This document shows, in pieces, positions 6,840 through 56,004 of a stretch of 64,000 bases of DNA. The notes below the pieces were generated by a model. That model was not told the origin of the DNA. It searched no databases and saw only the letters and a program-made list of their open reading frames with translations. Source of the stretch: Bacillota bacterium (GTDB lineage: Bacteria > Bacillota > Sulfobacillia > JAJYWN01 > JAJZPE01); assembly GCA_021787335.1 (NCBI GenBank), contig JAJYMC010000039.1, forward strand, positions 2,206 to 66,205, written 5' to 3'. Each line of letters starts with the position of its first letter. Position 1 is the first letter of the stretch. A program made the position numbers and the translations under genes.

Positions 6840-6845
6840 TATCAT

Positions 6846-6946
6846 ACGTTGGAAAGCGAGGAAGGACAGGCCTATTTTGGGCGCTTAACGGCCTGTCCCG
6901 AGCGAGTGGCGCAACCGACCCAACTGATGTTGGGTCTTTATTTTTT
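6846..6946 (+). ncRNA. Candidate small RNA or attenuated leader
   Basis: About 100 bases separate the promoter from a textbook terminator. A perfect 9-bp stem (6864-6872 with 6890-6898) is followed by the terminator stem (6917-6924 with 6929-6936, 4-base loop) and TTTATTTTTT. The next gene starts 70 bases later, so this could be an independent RNA or a riboswitch/attenuator-type leader. It matches no riboswitch consensus that I know. Confidence 0.5.
6917..6946 (+). terminator. Intrinsic terminator in the leader of the exported-protein gene
   Basis: An 8-bp stem with a TGAT loop is followed by ten bases that include nine T residues. It lies between the strong promoter and the coding sequence it would serve. 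Confidence 0.75.
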
Positions 6947-9111: not shown

Positions 9112-9356
9112 CGGCGACGGAGAGCGAAAAGCAAAGCCGTCGCTATGGCAAAGGCTTTGCGGATACCCTGCCGTGTGCGTGGAAGTCCGATAGGTTTTGA
9201 GCCAACATCAATACCTAGGGAGTCTGGCTCCGCCGGTGGACAGCACGCCCCCGTCCCCATGGACGTCAGGGGAAGCTGGCAAGCCGGCGGGAGGACACCC
9301 ACCTGCGTAAGCAGGTTCAAAACACGGGGCATCACGGCATGGTGGGGTTCCAATGA
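9112..9356 (+). ncRNA. ssrS: 6S RNA
   Basis: 6S RNA binds the RNA polymerase sigma-A holoenzyme and down-regulates it in stationary phase. The core runs from about 9161 to 9351. Its ends pair (TGCCGTG 9169-9175 with CACGGCA 9333-9339, plus an outer GC-rich stem), it contains the GAGCCA/TGGCTC stem (9199-9204 with 9225-9230), and near the 3' end it has the CACCTGCGTAAGCAGGT hairpin followed by TCAAAACAC, as in many bacterial 6S RNAs. A 5' leader with two short hairpins (about 9113-9160) precedes the core and may be removed. The ~560-base stretch 8959-9518 holds no protein gene. Confidence 0.75.
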
Positions 9357-54118: not shown

Positions 54119-54130
54119 ATATCCTGGGAC

Positions 54131-54173
54131 GGGAGGGCATACGCCTTGACCTGGGAGGGCATACGCCTTGACC
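54131..54173 (+). repeat. 22-bp tandem duplication of a ribosome site and TTG
   Basis: GGGAGGGCATACGCCTTGACC occurs at 54131-54151 and again at 54153-54173. Each copy contains a ribosome site and a TTG. Only the second TTG (54168) is in the frame of the Nudix gene, because the repeat length is 22. Confidence 0.9.
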
Positions 54174-54791: not shown

Positions 54792-55238
54792 ATGCCGCGG
54801 CCGATCAAATGCCGCCGGATCGGGTTCATGCCCGACATCACCTACTTCAAACCCGCCGGGGTGCCCCTCCGCATGCTCGAGGAAATCATCCTGAGCTTCG
54901 ATGAACTCGAGGCCCTCCGCCTGAAGGACATCGAAGGCCTGGAGCAGCAGGACGGCGCGGACCAGATGGGCGTCTCGCGGGCGACCTTCCGCCGGGTGCT
55001 GGTCAGCGCGCGGCGCAAGGTGGCCGACGCGTTGGTGGGGGGCAAGGCCCTCCGGGTCGAGGGTGGCGCCGTCGTCCACGAAGGGTCGCGGGGCGGCCCG
55101 GCCGATGGCCGAGGCGTTGATGGCCCGCGGGATCGAGGTCATCCCCACGGACGAGGTCGACGCCCTGCGGGCGGCCGAACTTTACGGCCGCGGGGAGCTG
55201 CGGTAAGTCGGCTTCGGTCCCCTCCGTTTCCCAAGTAG
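54792..55238 (+). CDS. DUF134 (UPF0251) DNA-binding protein, 3' end probably frameshifted
   Basis: Residues 1-~88 match DUF134: [40 protein letters not shown], and a sigma-70 region 4-like helix-turn-helix ([21 protein letters not shown]). From about residue 100 on this frame becomes Gly/Arg/Pro-rich, unlike a protein, while another frame from 55105 to 55206 encodes a good protein end ([20 protein letters not shown]...). AAAGGAG is 8 bases before the ATG. It lies directly upstream of sigK. Confidence 0.75.
55105..55206 (+). CDS. Out-of-frame NifX-like C-terminal fragment
   Basis: The frame starting ATG at 55105 encodes 33 residues ending [15 protein letters not shown], similar in pattern to the last helix and strand of NifX-type (dinitrogenase cofactor) domains. 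It overlaps the DUF134 frame. It could be the true end of that protein after a frameshift or deletion, or a chance frame. Confidence 0.35.
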
Positions 55239-55245
55239 CAAATGA

Positions 55246-55297
55246 CCCACCTCCGGCATAAGGTCTATATTGCCCCCTTTGGGGCACCGGAGGTGGG
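55246..55297 (+). promoter_or_regulatory. Inverted repeat that can mask the sigK ribosome site; sigma-E-like -10 in the loop
   Basis: CCCACCTCCGG (55246-55256) and CCGGAGGTGGG (55287-55297) are perfect 11-bp arms; the second contains the sigK Shine-Dalgarno sequence. CATAAGGT (55257-55264), similar to the sigma-E -10 CATA...T, lies between the arms, and a TGCCCC/GGGGCA hairpin sits at 55270-55286. A transcript started near 55271 would lack the first arm; read-through mRNA would have both. Confidence 0.6.
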
Positions 55298-55302
55298 TCT
55301 TC

Positions 55303-56004
55303 TTGTTCAGCTTCCTGGCCGCTCTCGGGGTCTCGGTGCTGCAGGCCCTGCTCTTCCAGACCGGTCACATCTCAGGCTCGAACACCTTCCCCCAACCACT
55401 GTCCGAAGACGAAGAGGCCAAGTACCTGAAGCGGCTGGCCAGCGGAGACTCGACGGCCAAGGACGTCCTGGTCGAACGAAACCTCCGGCTGGTCGCCCAC
55501 GTGGTCAAGAAGTTCGACAACACCGGTGAGGACATCGACGACCTCATCTCCATCGGGACCATCGGCCTCATCAAGGGAATCAGGACGTTCAACCCCAACA
55601 AGGGGACGCGGTTGGCGACCTACGCCGCCCGGTGCATCGAGAACGAGATCCTGATGTACCTGCGCTCGACCAAGCGCGTGCGGGCCGAGGTCTCCCTCTA
55701 TGACCCGATCGGGGTGGACCGCGAGGGCAACGAGATAACCCTCATTGACGTCCTCGGGTCCGATAACCCCGACGTCGTCCCCGACGAGGTCGAGAGCAGG
55801 TTCGAGGAGCACCGGCTGCGCGAGAAGCTCGGGTCGCTGGACGGCAAGGAGCGCGAGGTGCTCGAGCTGCGGTATGGGCTGGGCCAGTGCCGCGAGCGCA
55901 AGACCCAGCGCGAGATAGCGTGGCTGCTCGGAATCTCGCGGTCGTATGTGTCGCGCATCGAGAAGAGGGCCCTGGAGCGCATCCTCGGGCTGTTGACTCA
56001 GTAG
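55303..56004 (+). CDS. sigK: Sporulation sigma factor pro-sigma-K
   Basis: This 233-residue protein matches sigma-K, the late mother-cell sigma factor. It keeps the hydrophobic pro-sequence (MFSFLAALGVSVLQALLF), removed on activation, then NTFPQPLSEDEE, NLRLVAHVVKKFDNTGED (region 2), and TQREIAWLLGISRSYVSRIEKRAL (region 4). The gene is in one piece, without a skin element. TTG at 55303 lies 7 bases after GGAGGTG, which can be paired in an upstream inverted repeat. Confidence 0.93.
   Translation: MFSFLAALGVSVLQALLFQTGHISGSNTFPQPLSEDEEAKYLKRLASGDSTAKDVLVERNLRLVAHVVKKFDNTGEDIDDLISIGTIGLIKGIRTFNPNKGTRLATYAARCIENEILMYLRSTKRVRAEVSLYDPIGVDREGNEITLIDVLGSDNPDVVPDEVESRFEEHRLREKLGSLDGKEREVLELRYGLGQCRERKTQREIAWLLGISRSYVSRIEKRALERILGLLTQ

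Follow-up and report, generated by a model that had tools for sequence, protein, structure and literature searches.

A predicted hairpin that would hide the Shine-Dalgarno sequence of sigK and encloses its predicted sigma-E promoter, with counterparts at sigK and spoIIID genes across Bacillota

In this study, the DNA before the sporulation sigma-factor gene sigK was investigated in a stretch of 64,000 nt from a Bacillota genome; this whole stretch is called the window. A perfect inverted repeat was found before sigK, and its second arm contains the Shine-Dalgarno (SD) sequence of the gene. The observation had been made in a first-pass annotation; it was confirmed as real, and it had been understated at first. 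The best explanation of the repeat is a translational insulator nested around the sigK promoter, to which a probability of about 0.6 is given. Across Bacillota, roughly one in five sigK genes and one in four spoIIID genes have this layout.

The sigK coding sequence occupies positions 55303–56004 of the forward strand. It starts with TTG at 55303 and is uninterrupted, with no skin element. The protein matched the SigK equivalog TIGR02846 with 347 bits (cut-off 299; E = 3.5e-104), and one full-length match of 233 aa in the genome of the window showed that the gene is intact. A DUF134 gene (54792–55238, forward strand; PF02001, 82 bits) lies upstream in the same direction as sigK and is a plausible source of read-through RNA. 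Further upstream are a Nudix gene and a hemerythrin-like gene, and a YqeG-family phosphatase gene is located downstream of sigK. In the region 55105–55207, the DUF134 frame closes with a tail rich in R, G and P; another frame there has a protein-like reading of 33 residues with a stop at 55207, so the 3' end of the DUF134 gene is uncertain. A frameshift or a fused domain at this end is possible. Directly before the Nudix gene, at about 54128–54173, a sequence of some 22 nt, GGGAGGGCATACGCCTTGACC, was observed in tandem repeat.

The sequence of 55240–55305, read from the window, is AAATGACCCACCTCCGGCATAAGGTCTATATTGCCCCCTTTGGGGCACCGGAGGTGGGTCTTCTTG. Arm 1, GACCCACCTCCGG, is located at 55244–55256, and arm 2, CCGGAGGTGGGTC, at 55287–55299, both on the forward strand. 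The pairing of the two arms was perfect in the MFE fold and in the centroid fold. The first-pass annotation had correctly described the arms as perfect and had placed the SD in the second arm, and its arm length of 11 bp had to be corrected to 13 bp. The SD is GGAGGTG at 55289–55295, and its core GGAGG (55289–55293) is inside arm 2. An inner hairpin, TGCCCC-CTTT-GGGGCA, was obtained from the fold at 55271–55286 of the forward strand and was absent from the earlier description. Its strands, 55271–55276 and 55281–55286, form a perfect helix of 6 bp stacked on arm 2. The unpaired part of the leader fold consists of 14 nt holding the -10 element described below, plus a small inner loop.

The leader fold had an energy of -38.3 kcal/mol (z = -5.35), and none of 200 shuffles was equally stable. 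The longest exact complement to the sigK SD region within the 102 nt upstream was 13 nt, and 0 of 20,000 dinucleotide shuffles reached this length. Apart from the sigK arms, the 64 kb has no perfect inverted repeat whose arms reach 13 bp around a loop of 3–40 nt; the same search on five shuffled windows gave one such repeat in total. No Rfam leader matched at the hairpin. The Rfam matches of the window were elsewhere, with a c-di-GMP-II riboswitch at 6843–6929 (forward strand, 58.8 bits) and a 6S RNA at 9162–9352 (forward strand, 99.6 bits).

A sigma-E-like -10 element between the arms, as claimed earlier, was recovered. It is CATAAGGT at 55257–55264 of the forward strand, it is adjoined on its 5' side by arm 1, and it falls within the unpaired section of the loop. 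A -10 matrix built from 185 sigK leaders gave this CATANNNT-type element a score of 5.9, and about 1.7% of random window positions score even 4. It occupies the position homologous to CATAATCT in the relative G002. Upstream of arm 1, a degenerate stretch like a SpoIIID box, CAAGTAGCAA, was found at 55232–55241 (forward strand), where relatives have RGACANGCAC. In G002 the box is probably CCAGGCAC at -25, while the copy of the window appears poor in comparison, a point against the insulator reading. A SpoIIID-like RGACANGCAC box was present in 135 of the 185 sigK leaders, Bacillota-wide and in nearly all cases 25 nt before the -10 element, and this supports the identification of the -10 element as part of a promoter. 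In a control stretch, a similar box was present in 4 of the 185 leaders. SpoIIID activates spoIVCB in B. subtilis (PMC517825), and the positioned SpoIIID-like box together with the -10 element agrees with the known promoter of B. subtilis sigK, which uses sigma-E and SpoIIID. About 17 nt separate the box from the -10 element, and this spacer is the place of arm 1. Judged from the position of the -10 element, the sigma-E transcript probably starts at about the inner hairpin (55271–55286).

RNA entering sigK from upstream would have both arms and would form the 13-bp stem stacked on the 6-bp hairpin, and the folded read-through RNA could not present the SD to ribosomes. Sigma-E polymerase would start within the loop and give RNA without arm 1, in which the SD would be open and translated. 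The synthesis of SigK would thereby be tied to its own mother-cell promoter. The predicted cost of opening the sigK SD of the window was 17.6 kcal/mol in read-through RNA vs 6.5 kcal/mol in RNA from the predicted start, and it was 7.3 kcal/mol when arm 1 was shuffled. Arm 1 lies exactly where the promoter's own RNA would exclude it, which argues for the silencing of upstream RNA. The silencing of read-through RNA had been proposed in the first-pass annotation as a means of preventing early SigK. This mechanism is partly supported: the geometry of arm 1, -10 element and SD in arm 2 is real and recurs phylum-wide. Guarding against early SigK would be a plausible purpose. The timing of SigK is guarded by the skin element, pro-SigK processing and SpoIIID. 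If the insulator reading is true, the hairpin would be a further SigK checkpoint, usable by species without skin, and deletion of arm 1 would lead to SigK or SpoIIID made from stray transcription.

The layout was surveyed in 203 non-redundant sigK leaders, gathered from whole genomes and named contigs. A CATANNNT -10 element was present in 185 of them, with a median distance of 45 nt to the start. For each leader, the energy of the duplex formed by its SD region with the DNA immediately 5' of the -10 element was compared with dinucleotide shuffles and with SD regions swapped in from other species. The swap control was needed because SDs share GGAGG, so that every one of them could pair with a plain pyrimidine-rich spacer. 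With an upstream stretch of 35 nt, 16–17% of the sigK leaders were at p < 0.05. Control genes from the same loci reached this level in 5.0% of 497 cases, which indicated that the test was calibrated. With a stretch of 26 nt, 18% to 23% of the leaders were individually significant, the latter value in 166 leaders, and about 80% of the sigK leaders had no individually significant hairpin. The signal was weaker in a test of 75 nt upstream that was not anchored on the promoter.

The position of the signal was investigated with a sliding window of 16 nt in the 185 leaders. Complementarity to the own SD peaked sharply beside the -10 element. At the peak, offset -12, it was -1.92 ± 0.23 kcal/mol vs shuffles and -2.09 ± 0.30 kcal/mol vs swapped SDs, with standard errors that are somewhat optimistic. 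It was small beyond -27, and it fell to about zero past +12 and in the transcribed leader. The median distance from the end of the arm to the -10 element was 0 in the 34 significant loci. Such a sharp position is not expected of an ordinary leader hairpin. The signal was the same in the class of the window (53 leaders) and outside it (132 leaders). It persisted in 166 leaders reduced to under 80% identity, a filter that removes shared ancestry only partly and so accounts for the optimistic standard errors, and a signal of -1.15 ± 0.21 remained after the significant leaders were removed.

By full folding, strong examples were L262, L220, L269, L207, L047 (Candidatus Formimonas warabiya) and L032 (a bin labelled Thermaerobacter). 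The mean SD opening cost of 183 leaders was 7.9 kcal/mol for RNA begun 60 nt upstream of the -10 element, 6.3 kcal/mol with arm 1 shuffled, and 4.9 kcal/mol from the predicted start. The Fictibacillus leader L070 was rejected as an example, as its duplex was striking but its SD was not sequestered in the full fold.

The effect of upstream gene direction was investigated with a trained gene classifier (95% cross-validated). Hairpins were found behind 25 of 113 co-directional genes vs 6 of 59 otherwise (p = 0.06), and with strict gene calls behind 21 of 86 vs 3 of 29 (one-sided p = 0.084). Rank tests on upstream direction were null (MWU p = 0.38; strict calls, 0.15), and crude longest-ORF orientation gave no link between hairpin and direction. 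The difference had the direction predicted if the hairpin silences upstream RNA, but the link between hairpin and co-directional genes is no more than a trend. The median distance from the end of a co-directional upstream gene to the sigK start was 118 nt in the other genomes.

One further sigK is known in the family of the window, that of G002, with a protein identity of 89%. Arm 1 of G002 is GACCCCCCTCC; it has one C.U mismatch, its inner end is disturbed, and there is no compensation. The stem is retained as GACCC.CCTCC / GGAGG.GGGTC. The inner hairpin of G002 is different from that of the window, unrelated to it and larger, and the gene upstream of its sigK appears divergent. Column-wise covariation in one family of four related leaders was no better than in shuffles, and a megablast search for relatives against plasmids gave none. 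The first-pass annotation had proposed a comparison of the arms in relatives for paired changes and had regarded arms that do not covary as evidence against its mechanism. Phylum-wide, species-specific pairing of the arm with its own SD was strong, and the mechanism is not refuted on this count. However, G002 has one broken, uncompensated pair, and the column count in the four leaders did not exceed shuffles.

Other sporulation genes were tested in the same way. The gene spoIIID encodes the activator of sigK. In its leaders, 14 of 50 (28%) were at p < 0.05, and the signal was -3.10 ± 0.54 vs shuffles and -3.00 ± 0.56 vs swaps, stronger than that of sigK. The spoIIID leader of the window's own genome (L372; G000:C55:98411-98647, minus strand) has the layout seen at sigK. 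Its order is CCCCCCTC, ATAGACATT, an inner hairpin, and GAGGGGGG with the SD. The stretch CATAGACATT lies between the arms CCCCCCTC and GAGGGGGG, with the inner hairpin stacking on the arm that holds the SD. For spoIIIAA, a sigma-E gene used as a control, 1 of 21 leaders was significant, and spoIID gave no signal at the position anchored on the -10 element (14 leaders). The result for spoIVA was weak and mixed (13–18 leaders). For sigG, 8–12% of 24–25 leaders were significant, and one genus had a strong stem. In a looser test without the promoter anchor, spoIVA, spoIIID and spoIID were all above 5% (22–31%). In the spoIVA leaders L280 and L281 (G200 and G238), the arms CTTCGCCC and GGGCGAAG were observed about 55 nt apart, the second adjoining the SD.

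Since sigK and spoIIID were positive and spoIIIAA and spoIID null, the feature appears to mark, among the genes tested, the two mother-cell regulator genes. A phylum-wide design rule of the mother cell may be proposed tentatively, at slightly less than even odds. By this rule, the promoters of sigK and spoIIID would be nested in SD-sequestering hairpins, so that only RNA from the proper sigma-E promoter would make the next regulator; at sigK, the DNA that separates the SpoIIID box from the -10 element would serve as arm 1.

The hairpin could also act on transcription, as an intrinsic terminator of the DUF134 transcript, so that read-through is stopped and not merely left untranslated. The strong GC stem is followed by TTCTTGTTC, with 6 T in 9 nt, and no other terminator-like site lies from DUF134 to sigK. 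However, the scan detected no terminator-like site at all between the two genes and did not call the hairpin itself, which has a loop of 30 nt with a nested hairpin. At other hairpin loci, the sequence after arm 2 was hardly richer in T (3.18 vs 2.77 in 9 nt), and only 3 of 34 loci had 6 or more T, so termination is not the conserved property. The stem is, moreover, held to the SD by species-specific pairing, and termination is considered unlikely. In translational coupling, ribosomes ending an upstream frame or starting at ATG 55242 would melt the stem and so switch sigK on. The stop at 55236–55238, five bases before arm 1, and ATG 55242 share a reading frame and both border arm 1, and in B. 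subtilis spoIIID is reported to require usd for its translation (PMC4474612). Yet ATG 55242 has no SD, the C-terminus of the DUF134 protein may truly end at 55207 in the other frame, and the median gap of 118 nt elsewhere is mostly too far for arm 1 to be melted. Coupling is thus quite improbable.

The symmetry of the arms around the -10 element would suit an operator, a DNA-level inverted repeat bound by a dimeric protein that regulates the sigK promoter. An operator would conserve its sequence, but the arm sequences are wholly different between species, yet complementary to each own SD, and this reading is very improbable. The fold might also be true and yet have no selected role in the genome of the window, the phylum signal coming from other species. 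The imperfect stem of the nearest relative, G002, and the small share of leaders with a significant hairpin (18–23%) are in line with this. Chance of that kind is nevertheless quite unlikely in view of the 13-nt complement that none of the 20,000 shuffles matched, the like layout with inner hairpin at spoIIID of the same genome, and the population signal in the window's own class.

The insulator reading for sigK has known parallels. In T4 gene e, the long early RNA pairs the ribosome site in a helix and is silent, while late promoters just upstream of that site give RNA without the 5' strand, which is well translated (PMC3014915). An effect of about 100-fold was reported, and soc, 49 and I-TevI are kin (PMC3014915). 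Gene e and sigK share an SD held by the 3' strand of a stable helix, and at sigK a -10 match lies between the arms; in gene e the promoter is a phage late promoter and the function was demonstrated, whereas at sigK the putative promoter is of the sigma-E/SpoIIID kind and the function is predicted. In B. subtilis sigG (spoIIIG), a hairpin of 20+ bp was proposed to block translation of spoIIG read-through RNA, and RNA begun at the sigG promoter cannot form it (PMC5942855). This large hairpin resembles that of sigK in belonging to a sporulation sigma-factor gene and, as predicted for sigK, in concerning read-through RNA only. It differs in belonging to a forespore gene behind spoIIGA-sigE, whereas sigK and spoIIID are mother-cell genes in which arm 1 abuts the -10 element. 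A small 5-bp hairpin at the RBS in B. subtilis sigG mRNA (PMC5942855) likewise covers the SD of a sporulation sigma gene; it is within the mature mRNA and damps all translation, whereas arm 1 of sigK lies 5' of the -10 element. The usd-spoIIID system of B. subtilis shares with the mechanism proposed for sigK the control of a mother-cell regulator gene at the level of translation. Its stem-loop was reportedly detailed by Decatur et al. in 1997. Unlike sigK, it requires an upstream open frame inside the sigma-E transcript (PMC4474612). The promoter-nested SD hairpin is therefore of a known kind. In the literature searched, which misses most subscription journals, no paper on a hairpin before sigK was found, nor were sigK and spoIIID as members of this kind or the positional rule.

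Among the surveyed sigK genes, the leaders of split or truncated copies had 0 significant hairpins in 13, vs 34 in 172 for intact copies, numbers too few for significance. In several members of the class of the window (in part loci L166–L175), whose leaders had no significant hairpin, separate N- and C-terminal sigK matches were observed in a skin-like arrangement, namely in G018, G019, G024, G034, G038, G039, G041, G052 and G054.
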